A model generated the notes under the pieces. The model did no database searches. It had not been told where the DNA came from and saw nothing but the letters and a program-made list of their open reading frames with translations. The position numbers and the translations under genes are program-made. Positions 16,658-29,848 of a stretch of DNA of 64,000 bases are shown here, in pieces. The stretch is from Halostagnicola larsenii XH-48 (GTDB lineage: Archaea > Halobacteriota > Halobacteria > Halobacteriales > Natrialbaceae), in NCBI RefSeq assembly GCF_000517625.1, contig NZ_CP007055.1:1860001-1924000 (forward strand), in the 5' to 3' direction. The first letter of the stretch is position 1; each line of letters begins with the position of its first letter.

Positions 16658-19345
16658 TTACTCCTCGAGCAACCGCTTCAACCGATCCAGTTCGGTCAGC
16701 GCCTCGACCGGCGTGAGGTGGGCCAGATCGAGCGCGCGGAGTTCGGCCGCGACGTCGGTCGGCACGTCCCCGCCGTCTGCGCTCGCGGTCGTCGCCGTCT
16801 CGTCACGCGTTGCTCGTTGGCTCGGCCCGTCGGGCGCCGTTCGTTCGTCCGCCGGCTCGTCGGCCGCCTCCGCGACCAGCTTTCGCGAGCGCTCGACGAC
16901 GGGTTCGGGGACGCCCGCCGCGGTCGCGACGGAGACGCCGTAGGAGCCGTCGGCCGCGCCGGGGGCGATTTCGTGGTGGAAGACGACCTCGCCGTCTTCC
17001 TGAGTCGTCTCGAAGTGAAGGGTAAACGCGGCCTCGAGCTCCGCAGTCAGTTCGGTCAGCGGGTGGTGGTGAGTCGCAAACAGCGTCGTCGCGCCGACCT
17101 CGTCGTGGAGGTGTTCGGTGATCGCCTGCGCGATGGCGAGCCCGTCCGCCGTCGAGGTCCCGCGGCCGACTTCGTCGAGCAGCACGAGCGAGCGATCGTC
17201 GGCCTCCGCGAGTATCGTCGCGAGTTCGTCCATCTCGACCATGAACGTCGAGCGCCCGCCCGCGATGTCGTCGCTCGCGCCGACCCGGGTGAAGATCCGC
17301 TCGAGCGGCGTCAATCGAACCGACTGGGCGGGAACGAAGCTGCCGACCTGCGCGAGCAACGCGATCTGGGCGACCTGTCGCATGTACGTCGACTTCCCGG
17401 ACATGTTCGGTCCGGTGATGATCCCCAGTCGGCGGTCGCTCGAAAAGCGAGCCCCGTTCGGGACGAACGACTCTTGGGTTCGCTCGACGACGGGGTGTCT
17501 GCCGCCGTCGATCTCGAGCACCTGTTCGTCCCCGCGCTCGAGAAGCTCGGGCCGACAGTAGTCGTACTGTGCCCCGACGGTCGAAAGCGAGACGAGCGCG
17601 TCGAGGGTCGCGACGGCCTCTGCGAGCCCCTGGACGCGTTCTACCTCGTCGGCGATCTCGCGTCGAATCTCACAGAACAGCTCGTACTCGCGCTCGTCGG
17701 CGCGCTCTTCGGCACCGACGATTTCGTCCTCTCGCTTCTTGAGATCCGGCGTGACGAACCGCTCGGAGTTCTTCAACGTCTGCCGGCGCTGGTAGTTCTC
17801 CGGCACCGACTCGAGGTTCGGGTTGGTGACCTCGATGTAGTAGCCGTGGACGGAGTTGTAGCCGACCGACAGCGAGTCGATGTCGGTTCGCTCGCGTTCG
17901 GTTTCCTCGAGGTCGTCGATCCACTGCTTGCCGTCCCGTGCGGTCTCGCGGAGCCGGTCGAGGTCGTCGTCGTACCCCTCGGCGATGACGCCGCCCTCGG
18001 TGATCTCGATCGGCGGGTCGGAAACGATTCCGTCCTCGATCAGTTCGCGAACGTCCGCGAGCGGGTCGAGGTTCGCGTACAGCGACTCGAGTCGGTCGCA
18101 CTCGCCCCGGACGGCCTCGAGTCGGTCCCTGATCTCGGGGACGACCGCGAGCGTGTCCCGCAGCGAGCGCAGGTCCCGCGCGTTCGCCCGCTCCCGAGAG
18201 ATCCGGCCGATCAGTCGCTCGAGATCGTACACGTCCCGAAGCAGGTCCTGTAGCTCCTCTCTGGTTGCGACGGCATCGGTCAACTCCTCGACCGCGTCGA
18301 GGCGCGCTTCGATCCGGGCCGGTTCGAGCAGCGGTCGACGAAGCCAGTCTCTGAGTTTCCGCCCGCCCAGCGCGCTCGAGGTCTCGTCGAGGACGCCGAA
18401 CAGCGTGGCCTCCTCCCTGCCGTAGACGGCCCGAGGTTCGAACAGTTCGAGGCTGCGTAACGCGACGGCGTCGAGCAGGAGGTACTCCCGCGGGTCGTAG
18501 CGCGTGAGATGGGTCAGGTACTCGAGTCGCGTCGTCTGAGTGCCGGTTTCGATCATCCCGGCGGAGTCGGCGTCGTCGTTCTCTTCGACGCCCCCTCGAG
18601 CGTACTCCGCGTAGGCGAGCAAGGCGCCGCAGGCCCGCACCTCCGCGTCTCCTGCGAGCAACGAATCGGGGTCACCGAAATAGTCGGCGAGCATCTCGCC
18701 GGCGCGCTCGCGCTCGAATGCGGATTCGTCGAAGGGCGTGACCATGCAGTCCTCGGGAGCGAGCGTCCCGTCGGCCGCCGGGCCGACGATCGCCTCGGCG
18801 GGATCGAACCGGCTCATCTCGTCGGCGATCGCCTCGCTCGAGGTCGAACTCGTCGCGAGGAAGTCGCCGGTCGACACGTCGAGGAGTGCGAGCCCGCGGG
18901 CGTCGCCGTCGCGAGCCAGCGCCGCGACGAAGTTGTTGTCGTCGCTCGCGAGCAGTTCGTCTTCGGTGAGCGTCCCGGGCGTAATGACGCGCGTGACAGC
19001 GCGTTCAACCACGCCGGGCGACTCGCCCGGCTCTTCGACCTGATCGGCGACCGCGACGCGGTAGCCCGCCTCGAGCAAGTCGTCGATGTAGGAGGCGGCG
19101 TTGTCGACCGGGATCCCGGTCATCGGATACTCCCCGGTCGAATCCTCCCGGCTGGTGAGCGTCAACTCGAGGAGGCGGGCGGTTCGTTCTGCCGCGCCGC
19201 AGAAGGTTTCGTAGAAGTCGCCGACCTGAAAGAGAACGATCGCGTCATCGTAGCGCGCACAGAGGTCGTGGTACTGGCCCATCATGGGCGTCAGTTCCTC
19301 GCGCCGTTCGGCCATTTCGGGTGGCGGGCCACAGGCCGAGTCCAT
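16658..19345 (-). CDS. mutS: DNA mismatch repair protein MutS
   Basis: 895 aa, MutS1 type. Binds base mismatches and loops and recruits MutL. The mismatch-recognition motif F-x-E is in [10 protein letters not shown] (about 37-46). The ATPase has Walker [10 protein letters not shown] (about 642-650), Walker B region [13 protein letters not shown] and the following ATHHHPL. The C terminus ([20 protein letters not shown]) is the short helical tail of bacterial-type MutS. The frame is open 153 bp further upstream, but ATG 19345 begins the family-like N terminus. No mutL follows in the window. Confidence 0.96.
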
Positions 19346-19490
19346 ACCCAGTATCGGCCGCCGAACGCTGAAATAGCTTGCTGGATCGACCCGAAACAGC
19401 GAGCGTCGCCGGAGAGATGTGACGCTTCGAAGATACGTTTTTTTAGTTTTGCACCAATCCGCATAATAGGGGACGGGAACCAGGCAGCGT
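19346..19490. promoter_or_regulatory. Divergent promoter region mutS / 4Fe-4S membrane protein
   Basis: 145 bp between divergent starts. GCATAATAGG (19461-19470) is centred 26 bp before ATG 19491 and is a good TATA box for the rightward gene. A run of seven T (19438-19444) and the leftward AT-rich stretch agctatttcag near 19371-19380 serve mutS or end stray transcripts. Confidence 0.5.
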
Positions 19491-20828
19491 ATGAGCAATC
19501 AGCCCGACAACCCGTGGCACCTGACGCTCACCCGGTCACGGCTCTTCCGATTCTTGCTCACGAATCGATACGTGCAACCGGCCGTCCACGTGATCATGGT
19601 CACGTTGTTCGCGTGGGCCATCTGGACTGCCTTCACCGGACCACAGAACCCCGATACGAACTTCGGGAGCGTGGCCTTTTTCAGCCTCTGGTGGTCGACG
19701 GTCATGCTCGTCAGTCTCGTGGTACTCGGCCGCGTCTGGTGTTACGTCTGCCCGATGGGGGCGATCGTCCGGTTCACGCAACGGTTCGGACTGCAGCGTC
19801 ACTTCCCGATGTTCACCGGTCCGAAAGCGACCGTCTTCGGCATCTCGCTGTCGGTGCTCTCGATCACGGCGATCACGTTCCTGTTCGCCCGCATGCCGAT
19901 GTACAAACTCGGGATGGTCTTCGAACCGCGGCTGGTCGGCATCTACTTCCTCGCCTTCACCGCGCTGGCGGTCGGCGTCAGTCTCGTCTTCCAGCGCCAG
20001 GCGTTCTGTCGCTACGTCTGTCCCGCCTCGGGAGTCATGAGCGTTACCTCGAAGCTCTCGCCGGTCGAAATCCGCCAGGAGGAGTCGACCGGCGTCCAGT
20101 GTGCGACCCTCGAGTATCAGAGCGACTATCTGAGCACCGAGCGCCGCTGTGTCTCCTGTATGAAGTGTACGACCGAACAACCGAAAGCGGACGTCGGGCT
20201 CCGCGTTCGGTGGCCCGGCGCTGCGGCGGTGCGCCAGAAAATCGCGCTTCCGGACGAAGCCCTGCTCGTGATCGTCCTGTGGGCGGTGTTCCCGATCGAT
20301 CACGTCCTCGGCGGCAGGGTCGCCGAACTGATCGCGATGTCCGAACCGTGGCCCAGCGTGCTCGCGTACTTCGTGAGCGTTTTCGCGGCGATCGGCGCCT
20401 ATTCCGGAGCCACCGCGCTCGGCTCGCGCTGGAGCGGTCTCGAGTGGGAACCGTCGTTCACCCGATTCGCCTACGCCTACCTGCCGTTCTCGATCATGTA
20501 CATGCTAGGCAATCACGTTGTCACGAACCTCATGACGGAGGGCGGTGCGCTGGTCAACACGTTTTTCGCCGGTCTCGGCGTTCCGTTGAACCTCCCGGAA
20601 GCCCTTGCAAGCCCGTCGACGGTCGCCGCCTGGGAGTGGTTCAACGCCACGATCTGGCCGTGGCTTGGCGTCCTCTGGGGAATCGCGCTCGTTTGGTATA
20701 GCGCGACGCAGATCAGCGACTCGCCCGGGCAGGCGATCCGCGCCATCGCTCCGCACGTCCTGCTGGTCTGTCTCTCGACGGCGTGGATTATCGGCGTCGT
20801 CACCGTCCCCGGATTCGGCGGCCACTAA
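19491..20828 (+). CDS. Membrane 4Fe-4S protein, NapH/NosR/CcoG-like
   Basis: 445 aa polytopic membrane protein with two CxxCP motifs near helix ends (WCYVCPMGA about 83-91; [10 protein letters not shown] about 170-179) and a ferredoxin-like CVSCMKC (about 222-228), enough ligands for one or two 4Fe-4S clusters. About eight to ten hydrophobic helices. This arrangement occurs in quinol-linked electron-transfer or metallo-oxidase assembly proteins (NapH, NosR, CcoG), but flanking subunits that would tell which are absent. The C-terminal half lacks known catalytic motifs. Confidence 0.8.
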
Positions 20829-20978
20829 CCGCGACAGCGCTTTCGGTGCCCCGTCGATCGAATCGGTTTCCGCCCGAACACGTCTTTGAGCCGGCCGAGA
20901 GAACCTATCTGGGGTAGCTCCGCTGAATCTGTCGTCAAACGACGGAAAAAGGTATTACGGTTGCCTCGCCAGTAGGTC

Positions 20979-22751
20979 ATGAACTCCATGGACTCGCCGA
21001 TCTCGAGCGGAACGGTCGCGTTCCTCGCGCTGGTGGTGGTCTGTGCCATAGTCGCCGGAGCGACCGGTTCAGCCCTGGCAACCACGGCACCGGACTACTC
21101 GCTCGAGGAGGTCGGTTCGGACGACGCTACGCTGTCCGACCTCGAGATCGATACCGAGTCGGGCGAGACCACCCTCGAGAACGCGACGGACGACGAAGCC
21201 GATTCACTCGAGGAATCGACGGACGAGACGACCGATAGCGTCGACGGGTCGACCGACGAGGTGACGGGCGATGACGGCGACTCGACGAACGGCACAACCC
21301 GCGACGAGGACGAGGATACCGACGGGGAAGACGACCTGACCGACGCCGACGACACCCTCAGTGACGACGACCTGACCGACGACCCTACCGACACGGACGC
21401 GACCGACGAAAGCGGCGGTTCAGCCGAAGACACTGGCGAAGACCCCGTGGATGCAAGTAGCGTGGATGACGACACGGCCGATCCGGTCAGCGGTACGAAC
21501 GATTCGATCACCAACGGGACCGACGGCCTCGAGGAGACGAGCGACAGTCTGAACGACACGACGGATGCCGTCTCGAACGCGACGAACGAAACGACGGGCG
21601 GACTCGAGGGGACGGTCGAGAACACGACGGGCGGACTCGACGGCGCGACGGACGAGCTCGAGAAGACGACGGACAAACCGGCCAACGAGACCGGTTCGTT
21701 CCTCGAGAAGCCGGTTCGCTCCGCGTCGGACGTGCTCGCAGGGACGACCGCGGGAGCCGAAGCGGGCATCTCGACGACCGTCTCGAGCGTCACGTCGACC
21801 GGTCTCTCAGAGGCGTCTGAAACGATATCGGCAGTGGTGGACGACGATTCGCCGGTTGGCAGCGCCCTCGCCGGCGGGGAGCCCGCAGATCCGGGAGTCG
21901 CCCAGACCGCAACCGACGCAATCCTCGTCGGAATGCTGGGAGCCGTGGCCGCCTCTGCCGGGGCGGCCGGCGGAATCGGAGCGACGGGTGGCACGATCGG
22001 TGCAGCAGGAGGCGGACTCGGGGCTGCGGGCGGCGGAATCGGCGGCGCGGGTGCGGCCGGGAGCGCGGGGGCGACGGCCGGTGCCGGTCTCGCGGGCGGA
22101 ACGGCGGGTTCCGGCGCGGGAGCGGCGAGCGGGAGTGGCACGACGGGTGCCGCGAGCAATGCGGTCGCAAACTGGACGGCGAGCGGCCGTCGGTATCTCC
22201 GCCGCGCTCTCGCGTCGATTCCGTGGGAACTGCTCCCGATTTTCAAGTACAGCAGGTACGACGACTCGGACCCGCTCGAGAACGAAACCCGGGCGACGAT
22301 CTACGAGACCGTCGAGGCTCATCCGGGCAGGTACCTCTCCCAGATTAGCGACGACGCCGACGTCCCGCTGTCGACGGTTCGCCACCACGTCCGGATCCTC
22401 GAGGAAGAAGACCTCCTGACCGCCGCGAAGATCAACGGCAAGCGTCGGTACTACCTCGAAGAGACCGATTCGACGCTTCAGGCCGCACTCGAGGAACCCG
22501 CCAAACGCGACGTGCTCGAGGCGCTGGCGACGCTCGAGCGCGCGAACAACAGTGAACTCGCGGCGGAACTCGAGCGCGATCCGAGCACGATTACGCACCA
22601 TCTGTCGACGCTCGAAGACGACGGGCTTGTGGTTCGAAACCGCGATGGGCGGTCTGTCGTCACCGAACTCGCGACGGAGACGAAAGCGGCGCTGGGCGAG
22701 GACGATATCTCGACGCTCAAGGACGCCTCTCCGCAGGCACCGGCGGATTGA
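20979..22751 (+). CDS. Predicted membrane-anchored regulator: secreted acidic region, Ala/Gly-rich helix, two winged helices
   Basis: 590 aa. Signal peptide or first helix at about 9-33 (VAFLALVVVCAIVAGATGSA); then about 200 residues of Asp/Thr/Ser/Glu-rich low complexity with several N-x-T/S sites; a hydrophobic stretch about 311-337 (TDAILVGMLGAVAASAG) running into about 60 Gly/Ala residues; then two winged-helix DNA-binding domains, about 435-495 (ISDDADVPLSTVRHHVRIL) and about 505-565 (LAAELERDPSTITHHLSTL). The likely topology is outside acid tail, one membrane span, cytoplasmic DNA-binding end: a one-component membrane-tethered transcription factor. ggaaaaaggtattac about 28 bp upstream is a plausible TATA box. 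It converges on gvpO with 42 bp between stops. Targets unknown. Confidence 0.75.
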   Translation: MNSMDSPISSGTVAFLALVVVCAIVAGATGSALATTAPDYSLEEVGSDDATLSDLEIDTESGETTLENATDDEADSLEESTDETTDSVDGSTDEVTGDDGDSTNGTTRDEDEDTDGEDDLTDADDTLSDDDLTDDPTDTDATDESGGSAEDTGEDPVDASSVDDDTADPVSGTNDSITNGTDGLEETSDSLNDTTDAVSNATNETTGGLEGTVENTTGGLDGATDELEKTTDKPANETGSFLEKPVRSASDVLAGTTAGAEAGISTTVSSVTSTGLSEASETISAVVDDDSPVGSALAGGEPADPGVAQTATDAILVGMLGAVAASAGAAGGIGATGGTIGAAGGGLGAAGGGIGGAGAAGSAGATAGAGLAGGTAGSGAGAASGSGTTGAASNAVANWTASGRRYLRRALASIPWELLPIFKYSRYDDSDPLENETRATIYETVEAHPGRYLSQISDDADVPLSTVRHHVRILEEEDLLTAAKINGKRRYYLEETDSTLQAALEEPAKRDVLEALATLERANNSELAAELERDPSTITHHLSTLEDDGLVVRNRDGRSVVTELATETKAALGEDDISTLKDASPQAPAD

Positions 22752-22793: not shown

Positions 22794-23366
22794 TCAGTTC
22801 TCGAACGACCCCGTATCGCCGCGTCGGTATCGATCGATCCGCTGGTAGCCGAGCACGACCGCGTCCTCGTCGAGTTCGATTTCGTACCGTCCGAGGACGT
22901 CCTGCGTATCCGGGACCGAGGCTCGTTCGACGACTTCGGCGACCGCACGCCAGCCCTCGTCCGTCGGCGTAATCTCGCTGACGCCGTCGAACCGATACCC
23001 GATCAGTTCGCCCGCCGTCGACTGGACGGTTCGACGGACCGCGAGCACGCCTTCGATCTTGCTCTCGTCGACGTCGCCGGTTTCGACGTCCGCATCCTCG
23101 AGCGAACTCGTATCGACGTCTTCGGGGTCCGTCGTTTCCTCGCCCGCTATCGAGTCCGTCTGGGAACCGGCGTCGTCGCCCGCCTGCTGGTCCTGCTCTT
23201 GCTGTTCTTGCTGTTGTTCTGTTTGGCTGTCGCTCACGGTTGTATCACTCTCGTCGTGTTGGTAGCAAAACCCGTCGTCCTGGGCCGGGCGCGAACAGCG
23301 CTCACCGTCGTCGGTGAGTGCCTGACATCGTTCGCTCGAGTCCGTTTCGGTTTCGGCTTCGGCCAT
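22794..23366 (-). CDS. gvpO: Gas vesicle protein GvpO with N-terminal zinc-knuckle
   Basis: 190 aa. The C-terminal 90 residues are GvpO (AVRRTVQSTAGELIGYRFDG, then WRAVAEVVERASVPDTQDVL and YEIELDEDAVVLGYQRIDRY), a small protein needed for gas vesicle formation in haloarchaea. In front of it is a separate motif C-x9-C-x9-C-x2-H (RCQALTDDGERC ... FCYQH, residues about 14-37), which looks like a small zinc-binding knuckle, joined by a Gln/Asp/Glu-rich linker. The Halobacterium GvpO I know has no such motif. Third gene of the leftward gvpA-N-O unit, 38 bp after gvpN. Confidence 0.9.
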   Translation of the reverse strand: MAEAETETDSSERCQALTDDGERCSRPAQDDGFCYQHDESDTTVSDSQTEQQQEQQEQDQQAGDDAGSQTDSIAGEETTDPEDVDTSSLEDADVETGDVDESKIEGVLAVRRTVQSTAGELIGYRFDGVSEITPTDEGWRAVAEVVERASVPDTQDVLGRYEIELDEDAVVLGYQRIDRYRRGDTGSFEN

Positions 23367-23404: not shown

Positions 23405-24427
23405 CTATACCGTCTCAGAGATCCGGTCTTTGAGTTCGGTGACATCGTCGCCCTCGCGCCCGCCGGACACTTTCGGCGCGAGAACGTCGGTGAAGACGTC
23501 AGCGAGCAGTTCGTCTGCGATGCCGTTATCGCTGGTGTTGAACACTGACAGCCCTTTAGCCGTCGTGATCGCGGCTCGAGTCCCGACGACGATATCGAGT
23601 TCGTCACGCAACTGCTGGGTCGTCGAGACGACTTCGTCGATCTGGTCGGACGGCAATTCGACGTGTGCGTCGACGATCTCGCGCTCGGTTTCGGCGTCGT
23701 AGTAGTCGATGTGGACGCCGACGACGCGATCGAGCAGGGCATCCTGTTGCTGGTGGACCCCCGCGTACTCGATGTCGTTCGAGGTGAGTATCGCGCGAAA
23801 CTCGGGGTGGACGTCTATCGTCCGATCGTCGCCGCGCTTGCCCGGCCGCTCAAGGACGCCCTCCTCGAACAGCGACAGCAAGACGTTGTGAGCGGCGGGA
23901 TCGCTCCGGGAAAATTCGTTGTACACGAGCGTCGCGCCCTCCCGAACGGCGACCGAGAGCGGGTTGTCGACCCATCGCTCGCGGACGATCTGCGTCCGCT
24001 TGTCGACGCCGCCCACGAATTGATCGCGTTCTTCGTACCGTTCGCCGCCCGCGTGGGCGCCGACGAGAGCCGCCGTGTCGACGGCCTCGTCGCCGTTGAG
24101 CCAGACGACCGGCCGTCCACGTTCCGCTGCGGCCGAAAGCGCGAGTGACGTCTTTCCGCAGCCGGTCGGCCCGATCAGGTGGACCGGTTGTTCCGCCTCG
24201 AGCCAGCCCTGAATCCGGTTGCGAATCGAGTCGATTTCGTCGGTTTCGACGAACGGCTCCGGGGCGACTTCTTCCGGGGCTGAAAGCGGCGTGTCACCGT
24301 TTCGTTCGCTGGCCGCCGCCTTTCGACGGAGCTCTTTTTCGGCTTTGCGGCCGCTCTTTTGTGCGCGATCGGTTCGAATTTTCGTGCCGCGGACCTTCCG
24401 TTTACGCGAAGACGAGTCGTCCGCCAT
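23405..24427 (-). CDS. gvpN: Gas vesicle protein GvpN, AAA+ (MoxR-like) ATPase
   Basis: 340 aa. ATPase that promotes gas vesicle enlargement. Walker A GPTGCGKTS (about 86-94), a Walker B-like GATLVYNEFSRSDP (about 150-163) and sensor region FRAILTSNDIEYAG (about 197-210) are present. The first 40 residues are strongly basic (SRKRKVRGTKIRTDRAQKSG), as in other haloarchaeal GvpN. It starts only 5 bp after the gvpA stop, so no gvpC lies between them, unlike the p-vac and mc-vac clusters. Confidence 0.95.
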   Translation of the reverse strand: MADDSSSRKRKVRGTKIRTDRAQKSGRKAEKELRRKAAASERNGDTPLSAPEEVAPEPFVETDEIDSIRNRIQGWLEAEQPVHLIGPTGCGKTSLALSAAAERGRPVVWLNGDEAVDTAALVGAHAGGERYEERDQFVGGVDKRTQIVRERWVDNPLSVAVREGATLVYNEFSRSDPAAHNVLLSLFEEGVLERPGKRGDDRTIDVHPEFRAILTSNDIEYAGVHQQQDALLDRVVGVHIDYYDAETEREIVDAHVELPSDQIDEVVSTTQQLRDELDIVVGTRAAITTAKGLSVFNTSDNGIADELLADVFTDVLAPKVSGGREGDDVTELKDRISETV

Positions 24428-24432
24428 CGAGG

Positions 24433-24720
24433 TTATTGTGAGGCCGACTGGGGCGACGACTCGGGGCGTTGCTCGACCTCGAGTTCCTCGAGATCTTCCA
24501 TATCGCCGTCGGCCCTCGCTTGCTCAATTTTTGCGATCTCCTCCGCGTAGTGCAGGAAGGTGTCCACCGACGCGACGACGACGCGCGCTTCGATGGTGAG
24601 CAGTTCGATCCCGACGACCGAGACTCGCGCCCAGATGTCGATGACGACGCCCTTGTCGAGGACGCGGTCAAGTACCTCTGCGAGACTTGAGGAATCCGGT
24701 CTTCGTTGTGGTGATGGCAT
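24433..24720 (-). CDS. gvpA: Major gas vesicle structural protein GvpA
   Basis: 95 aa. The hydrophobic protein that builds the gas vesicle wall ribs. The core [40 protein letters not shown] and [14 protein letters not shown] is almost identical to halobacterial GvpA. It is longer than the usual 76 or so residues: an N-terminal [10 protein letters not shown] and a C-terminal acidic tail [23 protein letters not shown] 24720 is chosen because it begins closest to the family start; the frame is open to an ATG at 24762. First gene of the leftward unit. Confidence 0.96.
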
Positions 24721-25025
24721 CTCGTCCAAGTGTCCATCGCGGATGGGTTTGAGGACTCGCATTGCGTTTGCAAGTCCGCCGTTTGAAACGGGACGGCTGC
24801 TAGTGCAAGCACGAGAGTAACGTCGGGTGATCGCATACCCACTGTCGAACGTACTATGTCAATTCAGCGTATGCGCGAGCGCTGGCGGTCGCGGCCACCC
24901 ACGACGGGTCGGCTCCGGCGAGCACGGATCGGCCCCGTCCGCTCGAAGAGGACGTGCTTCCCCCAGTGCGCCTCCCGATCGGGGCCCCACTCGTTCGCAC
25001 GGTTTTGCTCGAGAGGTGACACCGA
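24721..25025. promoter_or_regulatory. Divergent control region between gvpA and gvpF
   Basis: 305 bp between the two gas vesicle units. In Halobacterium salinarum and Haloferax mediterranei gvpD and gvpE occupy the position before gvpF; here neither is present and no other gene fits. A Shine-Dalgarno-like GAGGTGA lies 8-14 bp before the gvpF GTG. I see no convincing TATA box for gvpA; a weak imperfect repeat GGGT-GATCGCAT-ACCC is at about 24835-24850. Confidence 0.6.
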
Positions 25026-25655
25026 GTGAACAACCGCTACGTCTACGGCATCGTCGAATCCGGCGCGGACCTCGAGTTCGAAACTGACGCCGTCGGGGGC
25101 GCAGATCGCGTCTACACCGTCTCCCACCGCCGGTACGAGGCCGTCGTCTCGGACATCGACACGACCGATCCGGAGGAGACGGACGAGGACGCACGGCGAC
25201 ACGACGAGGTCCTCCGCGAGATCATGGAGCGGACCAACGGCCATCCGATCGTCCCGATGCAGTTCGGGATGGCCTTCGAGAGCAACCGCGCGTTGAAGAA
25301 CGTCATTCGGGGCGCTCGACCGGCGTTCCGGCGCGCGATCCGCGACATCGAGGGTCGGATCGAACTGGGGGTCAAGCTCGTCACCGAGGAGGACGCAGAC
25401 GTCGATCGAGAAGCGATCGAGGAGACCGTCGCCGACGAACTCGAGCCGCTGGCCGCCCAATCGGTCGCGAACGACGACTTCAGCGATCGGCTCGTCGTCA
25501 ACCGGTCGTACCTCGTCGAGGAAACGGAGCGCGAACAGTTCGACGAAGCCGTCGCGGACCTCGAGGATCACCCCGACCTCGAGGACGTGATCGTCCAGTA
25601 TACGGGTCCGTTCGCCCCCTACAGCTTCGTCGACGTCAAAATCGGAGCCCAGTGA
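25026..25655 (+). CDS. gvpF: Gas vesicle protein GvpF
   Basis: 209 aa. GvpF/GvpL-family accessory protein, thought to bind GvpA early in assembly. Start motif RYVYGIVESG, the conserved GHPIVPMQFGMAF (about 75-87) and the C-terminal VQYTGPFAPYSFVDVKI are typical. GTG start with Shine-Dalgarno GAGGTGA. First gene of the rightward unit F-G-H-I-J-K-L-M. Confidence 0.94.
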   Translation: MNNRYVYGIVESGADLEFETDAVGGADRVYTVSHRRYEAVVSDIDTTDPEETDEDARRHDEVLREIMERTNGHPIVPMQFGMAFESNRALKNVIRGARPAFRRAIRDIEGRIELGVKLVTEEDADVDREAIEETVADELEPLAAQSVANDDFSDRLVVNRSYLVEETEREQFDEAVADLEDHPDLEDVIVQYTGPFAPYSFVDVKIGAQ

Positions 25656-25661
25656 TTTCCC

Positions 25662-25916
25662 GTGTTCGTACTCGATGACCTCCTCTTCCAGCCGTTCGTG
25701 AACATCCTCGACGCGATCCACACCATCGCGCTCGACGAGTTGTACGATCTCGAGGGACTCGAGGACGAGCGCAAGGAAAACCAGCTCCTGTACGAACTCG
25801 GCGAGCGGTCGGAAGAAGAGTATCTCGAACGAAAGGAAGTGCTCGAAGAAGAGATCGAAATCGCCCGAGAAGTCCACGAACAACTGCGGAGCGGACGCGT
25901 CGAGGTGAAACGATAA
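25662..25916 (+). CDS. gvpG: Gas vesicle protein GvpG
   Basis: 84 aa, usual length for the family. Begins LDDLLFQPFVNILDAIHTIA and then forms an acidic coiled region (EERSEEEY-like, LERKEVLEEEIEIAREVHEQ). An accessory protein essential for vesicle formation in haloarchaea. GTG start 6 bp after the gvpF stop; its stop overlaps the gvpH start by 1 bp. Confidence 0.92.
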   Translation: MFVLDDLLFQPFVNILDAIHTIALDELYDLEGLEDERKENQLLYELGERSEEEYLERKEVLEEEIEIAREVHEQLRSGRVEVKR

Positions 25917-26701
25917 TGTCCGACGAACCGCCATCAGACGACGAGCGACCGGACGAATCGAGCGACGATCACCGCGAATCCCAGCCCGACGAGGCCGACG
26001 ACCCTCACGACGGAGAGCCGTCACTGCCCGATGAACGCCGACCGCCGATCGGTCCCGAGTCGACGGATGACTGGTCGTCCGCAGAGCCGACGGGAGCAGA
26101 CGATCCCGAGGACGGCCACTGGCTCTCGAGTCTCCTGAATCTCCTCGACTCCCTCGATCGGACCGCCAGCGCGTCGGGATCGGGACGGGCCGGTGGCAGG
26201 AGTCGATTCGGGCTCGAGTACGACGTCTCGATCGGATCGGGGCTCGATCCGACCGGCTCGGATTCCGCACGAAGGTCGTCTAACCGACCCTCTCGGATCT
26301 CTCGAGGGGACGCTGCTAGACGCGACACCGCCGAGGAGCGCCCCTCCCGAACGCGGCGTCGGCGTTCGTCGCTTTCTACCCACCGCGTGACGACCCGGAC
26401 GTACGACGACGAACTGCTGGTCATCGCCGACGTTTCGGGTGTCGATCCCGAGACGGTTACCGTCGGATTCGACGGCAGCGACGACGACCCGACGCTCGTC
26501 GTCGGCGTCGGCGACCGGGAACTCGAGCGCGTCGACGTGCCGTGGGATCGGTCGTCGGTCGAAGCGGGCGCACGGATCAAAAACGGCGTCCTCACGGTTA
26601 CCGTCTCGACAAGCCACCGCGACGGTGCCACAGACACGGCGTCTGAGGGATCGAGCGCCACCGAACACGACGACGAATCCGGCGGTGATCGGCGTGAGTG
26701 A
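25916..26701 (+). CDS. gvpH: Gas vesicle protein GvpH with alpha-crystallin-like C terminus
   Basis: 261 aa. About 150 residues of disordered acidic, then Arg/Ser-rich sequence precede a C-terminal Hsp20-like domain (about 158-235): TYDDELLVIADVSGVDPETV, then VPWDRSS and ARIKNGVLTVTVS, which carries the alpha-crystallin NGVL motif. Family members are accessory and not essential. Overlaps gvpG by 1 bp and gvpI by 8 bp. Confidence 0.9.
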   Translation: MSDEPPSDDERPDESSDDHRESQPDEADDPHDGEPSLPDERRPPIGPESTDDWSSAEPTGADDPEDGHWLSSLLNLLDSLDRTASASGSGRAGGRSRFGLEYDVSIGSGLDPTGSDSARRSSNRPSRISRGDAARRDTAEERPSRTRRRRSSLSTHRVTTRTYDDELLVIADVSGVDPETVTVGFDGSDDDPTLVVGVGDRELERVDVPWDRSSVEAGARIKNGVLTVTVSTSHRDGATDTASEGSSATEHDDESGGDRRE

Positions 26702-27632
26702 GGAATCGAGCGACGACGACTCGGTGCTCCTCCAGAACGCAATGGCACACCTCGAGTCCCTCCGGAACGAACTCGATCCCGTCGAATCGATCGAAGAACT
26801 CGACGACGACGCTCTCGAGTCCGTCATCGGCGACGTCGACGCGCTCGTGGACGTCGCGACGGAACTCGAGGAACTGTTCGAGGCACTCGATCTTGAGAAC
26901 CTGCCGGAGGCGGTCGAGGGCGACGAACTGCTCGAGGCGATCGACGCGAGCGAGGTACCCGCGGCCCTGAGCGGCGGTGACGAGAGCGGCGTCGATGACG
27001 TCGTCGACCTCGGCCAGGTAGTCTCCGCGGTCGACCTATTGAGCGCCTGGAACGCGACCGACCTGACCGAAATCTGGGAGGAAACCCAGGAACTCGAGCA
27101 AGCGGTCGACGACCTCGCGAACGACGAAGACGGCGGACTGGCTTCGGAGGCTGCCTCGGCCGTGACCGACGACGACAGCGGTCTCGTCGGCGACGATGGA
27201 CTCCTCAGCGGAGAGGAGGACGGGAACGGACTGCTCGGCGGCGGAGATGACCTCCTCGAGGACGTCGATCCGACGGACGCGCTAGGCTCGATCAACGTCG
27301 ACGAAAACCCCGAAGCCTATCAGGCGTTCATCCAACAACAGGCGATGGAGGGAATCGACGAGTTTCGGGACGCCCTGTTGAAGACCCACGGCAAGTTCGA
27401 GAGACTCTACGAACTGAACCGCGAGAAGATGCGCCGACAGGATACGAGCACCAGCTCCCGAAATCCGACGGCGGCGTCGACGATTCCGACGAATCGACGC
27501 GACGTAGGCGGCGGCGCTCGACACTCGACGGTGCCGCGAAAAGTGAAGTACTCGACCGCACCGGCTCGAAACCGGATCTACGGACGCCGGTTCGAACTCG
27601 AGCGCAAGCGACGGGGGTACGACGATGACTAA
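26694..27632 (+). CDS. gvpI: Gas vesicle protein GvpI, enlarged
   Basis: 312 aa. Called from its place between gvpH and gvpJ and from the basic C terminus: SRNPTAASTIPTNRR, ARHSTVPRKVKYSTAPARN and RIYGRRFELERKRRG (about 255-308). The first 220 residues are very acidic and helical (repeated Leu-Asp-Glu patterns). Halobacterium GvpI is about half this length, so this is an extended or fused form. The start GTG 26694 overlaps the gvpH stop, supporting coupling; the reading frame is open further upstream inside gvpH. An internal ATG near 26741 is an alternative. Confidence 0.78.
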   Translation: MSEESSDDDSVLLQNAMAHLESLRNELDPVESIEELDDDALESVIGDVDALVDVATELEELFEALDLENLPEAVEGDELLEAIDASEVPAALSGGDESGVDDVVDLGQVVSAVDLLSAWNATDLTEIWEETQELEQAVDDLANDEDGGLASEAASAVTDDDSGLVGDDGLLSGEEDGNGLLGGGDDLLEDVDPTDALGSINVDENPEAYQAFIQQQAMEGIDEFRDALLKTHGKFERLYELNREKMRRQDTSTSSRNPTAASTIPTNRRDVGGGARHSTVPRKVKYSTAPARNRIYGRRFELERKRRGYDDD

Positions 27633-27691
27633 TGGAGAGGTCACTGCTACGGTGAGCGCAATGCTAGGTACATCACGACATCCGGCAGTCG

Positions 27692-28276
27692 ATGAATCAG
27701 CCCGAATCGGCTACGAACGCCCGTGGGTCGTTCGGACGACCGCGTGGAGAGGTGATCGGCGTGGTCGATGACTTCCAACCGAGTCGGCAGAAGACAGACC
27801 TCGCCGAAGTCGTCGAGATGCTGCTCGATAAAGGAATCGTCATCAACGCCGACATCGCCGTCTCGATCGGCGATACGCAGCTGCTTGGCATTCAGGTCCG
27901 GGCGGCGATCGCGTCCTTCGAAACGGCGGCCAAGTACGGCCTCGAGTTTCCCGAGGGAACCGACATGCGGCGAGTCGCAGAAGCTGTCGACGACCCCGAG
28001 TTAGCCGAAACGGACCGGCCGAACCCGGCGATCGACCCGACTCGAGGCGTCAACGTCACGCCGAATCCCGAGGACGACGGCGGTGATTCGAACGGCGGGA
28101 CCAGCGACGAGGGAGACGAGACGGCCCCGGAAGATGGCGACAGTGAGGCGGATCCGGCTGACGACGACAGTGAGACGGACCCGGCTGACGACGACAGCGA
28201 GGCGGACCCGGATACTGACGACACTGAGACGGAGGACGAAGAGGCCGAAGCGACGGCGGAGGCGGATACCGAATGA
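27692..28276 (+). CDS. gvpJ: Gas vesicle protein GvpJ (GvpA family) with long acidic tail
   Basis: 194 aa. Minor structural protein of the GvpA fold: [20 protein letters not shown] and [20 protein letters not shown] (about 37-75). Followed by the GvpJ-specific [15 protein letters not shown], then about 80 residues of Asp/Glu-rich tail built partly from a 27-bp tandem repeat. There is a 59-bp gap after gvpI; a GTG at about 27751 is a possible alternative start. Stop overlaps the gvpK start (ATGA). Confidence 0.93.
28141..28221 (+). repeat. 27-bp tandem repeat in the gvpJ tail
   Basis: Three copies (28141-28167, 28168-28194, 28195-28221) encoding variants of DSEADPADD, read in frame inside gvpJ. 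The copies differ at a few bases, so the array is probably variable between strains. Confidence 0.85.
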
Positions 28277-28617
28277 CGACGATCGACGTCGGCGACGGTG
28301 AGGACGCCAGAGACGGGCTCATGACGCTCGTCGTTACCGTCGTCGAACTGCTCATCGAGGCCCTCGAACGGGAGGCCGTCCGCCGAATGGAGTCCGGTGA
28401 TCTCGACGACGAAGAGATCGAACGGCTCGGGGAACAGCTCGCGACGATCGAAGCCGAACTCGAGGAGCTGAAATCGGACGAGGGTATCGACGACGGCGTC
28501 GACGACCTTCGGGGAGACCTAGACGGGCTGGTACGCGACGCGATCGAGCAGTTAGAGGGAGGATACTCCGAACACAAACGACCCGGCTACTCCGTCTTCG
28601 GAGGTGAGGACGAATGA
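28273..28617 (+). CDS. gvpK: Gas vesicle protein GvpK
   Basis: 114 aa, usual length. GvpK core: [51 protein letters not shown] (about 16-68). Essential accessory protein of unknown mechanism. Coupled by ATGA overlaps to gvpJ upstream and gvpL downstream. Confidence 0.94.
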
Positions 28618-29543
28618 GTGGAGATCGGGCAGGGTCCGGCGTCGACTCTCGAGAGGAACGGCGCGGTGCCGTCGAGTCGGATTCGCTTCCCGACATCGAA
28701 GAGGGACGCTACCTCTACTGTGCCGTTCGAGTCGACGGGGACGACTCTCGAGGCGAAGACTCACGAAACGGGGATGCGCTCGACCTCGAGACCGGCGGGG
28801 TCGACGGCGAACCCGTTTCCGTGATCTCCGTCGGCGATATCGGCGTCGTCTGCCACGAGTGCGACGGACTCTACGATTCGGACGACCTCGCTCAGGTCAA
28901 ACGCTGGCTCGTTCGTCACCAGACCGTCGTCGATGCCGCGGGCGAGCAGTTCGGAACGCCGATCCCGTTCCAGTTCGATACGATCATCAGAACCGACGAC
29001 GATGGAGTCCGCGAGTGGCTTCGAAACGAGTCCGACACGCTCGAGCCCACGCTCGAGGAACTCGCAGGCCACTGGGAGTACCGCATCGAGGTCGTCGAGA
29101 CGGACCCGCTCGAGGAACAACGGCTGCTCGAACGCGACGAGCAACTCGCCGACCTCCGAGAGCGGATCGACGACTCGGGGTCGGGAACCGCACATTTACT
29201 CGAAAAACAGTACGAACAGCGTCTCAAACAGTTGCGAGCGGATCGCCGAGAGCGTATCGAAGCCGACCTCCGAGAGCGGATCGACGAACGCGTCAGGGAG
29301 GTACACGCCCTCGAGCGATCGCCGAACGCCACGCTCGACGATGGATCGGATGATTCGGCAGAGACCTCGCTCGATTCCGGAGAAACGCTGTGCCGGTTCA
29401 CCGTGCTCGCTCACGAAGATGAGGAGGGCGCTGTCGGTTCGGTTCTCGACGACGTCGCGTCGAATCCCGGGTTCACGGTCAAATTCACCGGCCCGTGGCC
29501 GCCGTACACGTTCGCCCCCGAACTCGGAGGGAACGACGGATGA
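28614..29543 (+). CDS. gvpL: Gas vesicle protein GvpL
   Basis: 309 aa. GvpF/GvpL family: [12 protein letters not shown] near the N terminus (about 31-42), [20 protein letters not shown] (about 103-122) and the C-terminal [16 protein letters not shown]. It is considered a hub that binds several Gvp proteins. A coiled, Arg/Glu-rich middle (about 170-235) separates the two conserved halves, and the linker before the last block is acidic. Confidence 0.94.
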
Positions 29544-29848
29544 TGCCGAGTAAGGACGACGAGGCGCTGGTCGACCTCCTCGACGTGATCCTGCGTGACG
29601 GCGTCATCCTTCGCGCCGACGTGATCATTTCGGTCGCCGAAATCCCCCTCGTCGGGCTCAAACTCACTGCCGCGCTCGCCGGAATGGACACGATGACCGA
29701 ATACGGGCTCTTCGAGGAGTGGGATGTCGAGCGGCGCCGTTCGCCGATCACCCGCCGGCAGTACGGCGACTCGAAAAAACGCGAGCGGCCCGTACCCGTA
29801 GCGAGGGGGCACGCCGAAGAGTCTGGAACGCTCGAGGAACGAAACTGA
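29543..29848 (+). CDS. gvpM: Gas vesicle protein GvpM (GvpA family)
   Basis: 101 aa. GvpA-fold minor protein: ALVDLLDVILRDGVILRADV, IISVAEIPLVGLKLTAALAG and MTEYGLFEEWD (about 8-60) are typical of GvpM. Two adjacent ATG codons (29540 and 29543) are possible starts; both overlap the gvpL stop. The 40-residue tail is basic and not conserved. Last gene of the rightward gas vesicle unit. Confidence 0.93.
   Translation: MPSKDDEALVDLLDVILRDGVILRADVIISVAEIPLVGLKLTAALAGMDTMTEYGLFEEWDVERRRSPITRRQYGDSKKRERPVPVARGHAEESGTLEERN

Follow-up and report, generated by a model that had tools for sequence, protein, structure and literature searches.

The gas vesicle (gvp) cluster of a Halostagnicola (Natrialbaceae) chromosome lies beside a gene for a predicted membrane-tethered protein that we consider on balance to be a type I transmembrane one-component regulator with a C-terminal pair of winged helix-turn-helix (wHTH) domains, whose adjacency to gvp was inherited and which is not a dedicated replacement for GvpD and GvpE (GvpDE). 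The evidence comes from a 64-kb stretch of this chromosome, hereafter the window, and from comparison with related loci and 125 Natrialbaceae genomes.

Architecture and relatives of the predicted membrane protein

The open reading frame of the putative regulator, called the regulator below, begins with ATG (an alternative start, Met4, lies at 20988), has a GC3 of 0.80 and is preceded by a candidate TATA box. The gene and its features are as follows.
20979..22751, + strand: predicted membrane-tethered double winged-helix protein, 590 aa (ORF and homology)
20952..20958, + strand: TATA-like box of the regulator gene, within GGAAAAAGGTATTACG (kept 5′ of orthologs)
20979..21080, + strand: signal-peptide-like N terminus, residues 1-34 (hydropathy and orthologs)
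21081..21905, + strand: acidic S/T-rich low-complexity segment, residues 35-309, predicted to be extracytoplasmic
21906..21992, + strand: hydrophobic span kept among orthologs, residues 310-338, running into Gly/Ala-rich sequence; predicted transmembrane helix
22185..22244, + strand: basic/amphipathic juxtamembrane segment GRRYLRRALASIPWELLPIF, residues 403-422 (alignment conservation, helices in the model)
22245..22463, + strand: winged helix 1, residues 423-495, HTH_20 / HVO_0163_N (Pfam, model, sequence match)
22476..22670, + strand: winged helix 2, residues 500-564, ArsR/MarR-like (Pfam, model, structure match)

The N terminus, MNSMDSPISSGTVAFLALVVVCAIVAGATGSALA, is signal-like, as the preliminary description of this DNA had it, and orthologs begin alike with a short n-region, a hydrophobic core and an A-x-A-like end. 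The following segment contains 82 Asp/Glu, 5 Lys/Arg, 79 Ser/Thr and 9 N-glycosylation sequons; it had been correctly described as acidic and is predicted to be extracytoplasmic, but it measures about 275 residues rather than the 200 first given. The single hydrophobic span, TDAILVGMLGAVAASAG, runs on into a long Ala/Gly stretch, again as described, and is conserved among orthologs. A basic GRRYLRR segment precedes the winged-helix pair, and the positively charged residues that follow the span would agree with a C terminus in the cytoplasm.

That two winged helices follow each other is borne out by Pfam matches to HTH_20 (residues 433-481) and HTH_5 (507-551) and by an AlphaFold2 model built with 52 sequences, in which both wHTH units are complete and the pLDDT of the block is mostly 90-98. 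PF24266, the N-terminal HTH of HVO_0163, scores 49.6 bits on the window protein against a gathering cut-off of 31 and matches all 52 family members scanned, while NF033788 scores 70.5 bits (cut-off 55). Winged helix 1 matches PDB 5duk in sequence. Winged helix 2 matches ArsR and MarR regulators structurally with Z scores of 12-13.5, CzrA among them at 13.5, and its sequence agrees. Mean column identity across the pair is 72% (14 orthologs, alignment A1), and the recognition-helix residues LSTxRHH and DPSTxSHH are almost invariant among orthologs. None of the invariant or nearly invariant alignment columns of the pair holds a cysteine, which speaks against a metal site in the winged helices.

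Homologs occur at E≤1e-10 in 75 of the 125 Natrialbaceae genomes, mostly as long open frames, and 56 genomes carry a member of the ortholog clade defined with the A1 profile, built on the wHTH pair. All 56 orthologs keep the order of signal-like start, acidic segment, span TDAVLVGLLGAITASGAAAGG and wHTH pair. Their acidic segments range from 114 to 491 residues (median 192; Asp+Glu 27%, Lys+Arg 2%), a variation that argues against a folded ligand domain. Relatives are also found in other haloarchaeal families, and a second clade of this predicted membrane protein has no gvp linkage; in five of its loci (L136, L139, L140, L147, L148) it lies near a small Hsp20-like gene, recognized by eye, and an oxidoreductase-like gene. 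At L116, L121, L125, L127 and L130, all from one genus, a topoisomerase I-like gene (also by eye) follows the regulator in tandem instead of gvp. An apparently cytosolic double-wHTH paralog lies 2.7 kb past the window end (L002) beside a His-rich membrane-like protein, and genomes G111 and G112 carry double-wHTH forms of 197 residues that also appear cytosolic.

We propose that the signal peptide exports the acidic segment, which would probably be disordered and glycosylated, and that the membrane is spanned by a single Gly/Ala-rich helix, which may aid dimerization. The basic juxtamembrane segment would then lead into two cytoplasmic winged helices able to bind DNA without a phosphorelay; sequence, conservation and structure prediction all favor this membrane-tethered, phosphorelay-free architecture, which had been suggested from the start. 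The accompanying suggestion that the protein senses outside conditions is doubtful, as its outer part looks disordered, is of low complexity and very variable length, and has no recognizable ligand domain.

The gas vesicle neighborhood

The regulator lies among the following genes.
16658..19498, − strand: mutS, the usual divergent neighbor of the regulator in relatives
19491..20828: Fer4_5 iron-sulfur protein gene, product apparently polytopic, here between mutS and the regulator
22794..23366, − strand: gvpO, convergent neighbor of the regulator
23405..24427, − strand: gvpN
24433..24762, − strand: gvpA (homology suggests that the true start is Met15, at about 24720)
25026..29848, + strand: gvpF-gvpM operon

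The convergence of the regulator on gvpO had been correctly noted. The usual Natrialbaceae order is mutS / regulator / gvpO-N-A / gvpF-M, in which mutS and the regulator diverge and the regulator and gvpO converge. Among orthologs from gvpO-positive genomes, 45 of 52, spread over 13 genera, adjoin gvp genes, and they converge on gvpO at every such locus that has it; co-occurrence with gvp had been set beforehand as a test of the link, and on this count the link stands. Presence of gvp was scored by GvpO, since gvpN alone under-called clusters and is missing at several linked loci. The gvp clusters of L128, L131-L133, L138, L085 and L086 apparently have no gvpN between gvpA and gvpO. Outside Natrialbaceae, the two genes are convergent and 2.8-4.8 kb apart in three genomes of one genus, and unlinked in the remaining genomes with both for which both positions were listed. 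In G021, a Halostagnicola relative, gvp is split over two contigs (L084/L183), gvpF-M with the regulator versus gvpA-N-O. The Fer4_5 gene has a scattered distribution (18 of 125 Natrialbaceae genomes) and was rejected as a partner of the regulator, from which it lies apart in the other placements listed.

Regulator and gvp are kept or lost separately. Of the 125 genomes, 111 carry gvpO; an ortholog accompanies gvpO in 52 of them and occurs in 4 of the 14 genomes that lack gvpO, so the two are not associated (Fisher p=0.26). In many of the 59 gvpO-positive genomes without an ortholog, close family members are missing as well (E≤1e-25). The four orthologs in genomes without gvpO are intact, among them those of L095 (284 bits) and L104 (279 bits), which lie by mutS, and at L112 and L116 an intact regulator remains at mutS with the gvp genes located elsewhere in the genome. 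A mutS tree (FastTree) scored by parsimony gives about 13 state changes for the regulator and 5 for gvp, counted irrespective of direction, and most of the regulator changes occur with gvp kept. Regulators are often lost in evolution while their targets are retained, which leaves independent loss compatible with regulation where both are present.

The description of a gvp cluster lacking gvpD and gvpE is confirmed: tblastn with Halobacterium GvpD and GvpE queries matched the positive control but nothing in the window or at 129 related loci, and GvpE gave nothing on the window at E≤1e-3. Every cluster checked lacks gvpDE, whether the regulator is present or absent, in line with PMC4390858 and PMC3403918. 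A whole-genome GvpD search, run without a positive control, also gave no match. PF07088 (GvpD P-loop) has no match in the genome of the window; its matches elsewhere were set aside as mostly ATPase-like frames of about 500 residues, mostly away from gvp, as were scattered genome-wide GvpE matches, often of about 168 residues, none of which lay near gvpN among those compared.

A gvp promoter element and the possible role of the regulator

Upstream of gvpA lie two copies of a gvp-specific element, the only ones in the window (0.07 expected).
24763..24774, − strand: gvp-specific promoter element, proximal copy CTTGCAAACGCA
24798..24809, − strand: gvp-specific promoter element, distal copy CTTGCACTAGCA

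The core, CTTGCAnnnGCA, stands a median of 54 bp before the gvpA start codon, beside a TATA-like GTGTTACG; a second core copy lies farther upstream in the direction of GATAAC, a TATA-like sequence on the gvpF strand. Allowing up to one mismatch, the core occurs in 41 of 44 clusters with the regulator and 50 of 51 without it, compared with 0.04-0.06 matches per shuffled region; among the gvpA upstream regions of L085-L212 it is absent from L131, L132, L138 and L159. Across the 125 genomes, an extended pattern matches at 49 sites, 45 of which lie just upstream of a gvpN match. Those in G036 and G052 lie within about 1.2 kb of gvpO, the G090 match is on a contig possibly adjoining the gvpN contig, and the one match elsewhere is on contig 27 of G089. 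Sister loci with the regulator (L151) and without it (L211/L212) are near-identical in the gvpA promoter. Because the element is kept with and without the regulator, another factor probably reads CTTGCAnnnGCA.

These data bear on the earlier proposal that the protein replaces GvpDE. As a dedicated gvp regulator it would bind the divergent gvpA-gvpF promoter region, possibly at CTTGCAnnnGCA, and turn gas vesicles on or off in answer to the cell surface. Its linkage and invariable convergence with gvpO, recurring in a second family (three genomes), point that way, as do the consistent lack of gvpDE and the absence of any account of how these species regulate gvp (PMC4390858); linkage retained over 13 genera and a second-family genus could reflect selection. 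Yet the 59 gvpO-positive genomes without an ortholog, the uncorrelated presence and independent state changes, and the proteins left intact where gvp is gone argue against it, and so does an element that is as conserved where the regulator has been lost. A scan with the motif of the regulator's own promoter likewise found no enrichment in gvp intergenic regions. Replacement is unsupported, since gvpDE-less clusters are as frequent without the regulator. We regard a dedicated role as unlikely and direct control of gvp as possible at the same low level; that the protein controls the GvpDE-less clusters of Natrialbaceae, with backup factors acting on the same element where it was lost, seems a little less probable again. 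An inherited neighborhood explains the adjacency at least as well as function: it probably stems from an old chromosomal block, mutS/regulator/gvpONA/gvpF-M, passed on vertically in Natrialbaceae, and the regulator's own gene and envelope genes would be as likely targets as gvp.

Two further readings concern how the winged helices act. Regulated proteolysis within or close to the Gly/Ala-rich span could free them as a soluble regulator; the long flexible linker that joins span and wHTH pair would suit this, and apparently cytosolic double-wHTH relatives exist (the L002 paralog and the G111/G112 forms), but neither a cleavage site nor a partner protease was identified and ToxR/CadC and ArnR work from the membrane, making such proteolysis improbable. 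The pair might instead hold a chromosomal locus at the membrane with no role in transcription, as Foldseek aligns it as a whole with ScpB and other DNA-architecture proteins. That superposition is poor (rmsd 10-13), ArsR/MarR-type regulators give the sequence matches and the best structural ones, and the gene neighborhood varies, so we consider a pure DNA anchor very unlikely. A one-component regulator acting from the membrane is the reading we retain.

How the many gvpDE-less haloarchaeal clusters are regulated, and whether they are expressed in the first place, is a question left open in PMC4390858, to which the gvp-adjacent regulator is probably not the answer. The gvp-specific element, which has no known reader, is testable and may be the more useful lead. 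The regulator itself represents an uncharacterized archaeal family of putative membrane regulators whose winged helices come in tandem; were it to control gvp, it would couple buoyancy to cell-surface state from the membrane.

Relation to known regulators

CadC and ToxR consist of an N-terminal cytoplasmic wHTH domain of the OmpR type, a transmembrane helix and a C-terminal outer domain. The window protein reverses this order, with a signal peptide, an outer segment, a transmembrane span and a C-terminal double wHTH of the HTH_20/HTH_5 type. Winged helix 1 scores above the cut-off for the HVO_0163 HTH family (PF24266), whose Pfam model spans the first HTH only; no description of HVO_0163 function was found in the literature searched. 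Winged helix 2 shares its fold with ArsR/SmtB proteins (CzrA, SmtB), from which the regulator differs by its tandem wHTH, its predicted membrane tether and its lack of a conserved metal-ligand cysteine.

Like the GvpE/GvpD pair of Halobacterium and Haloferax (PMC4390858), the regulator sits by a gvp cluster, but no sequence relation between them was found; GvpE, whose gene is part of the cluster, is a leucine-zipper-like activator. The Natrialbaceae element resembles in position the GvpE-responsive element beside the BRE (PMC4390858), and its core was not found in the gvpD-gvpA intergenic region of Halobacterium pNRC100. Like the transmembrane transcription regulators surveyed in PMC10269533 (ToxR and CadC among them), the window protein unites a DNA-binding domain with one or more transmembrane regions, both by prediction, in a single chain and would need no phosphorelay. 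ArnR/ArnR1 of Sulfolobus are likewise archaeal membrane-bound one-component regulators; ArnR has an N-terminal HTH, a HAMP/sensor region and two C-terminal transmembrane helices (PMC6396743), and the window protein, compared by domain description, is set apart from it by the reversed order of its domains.
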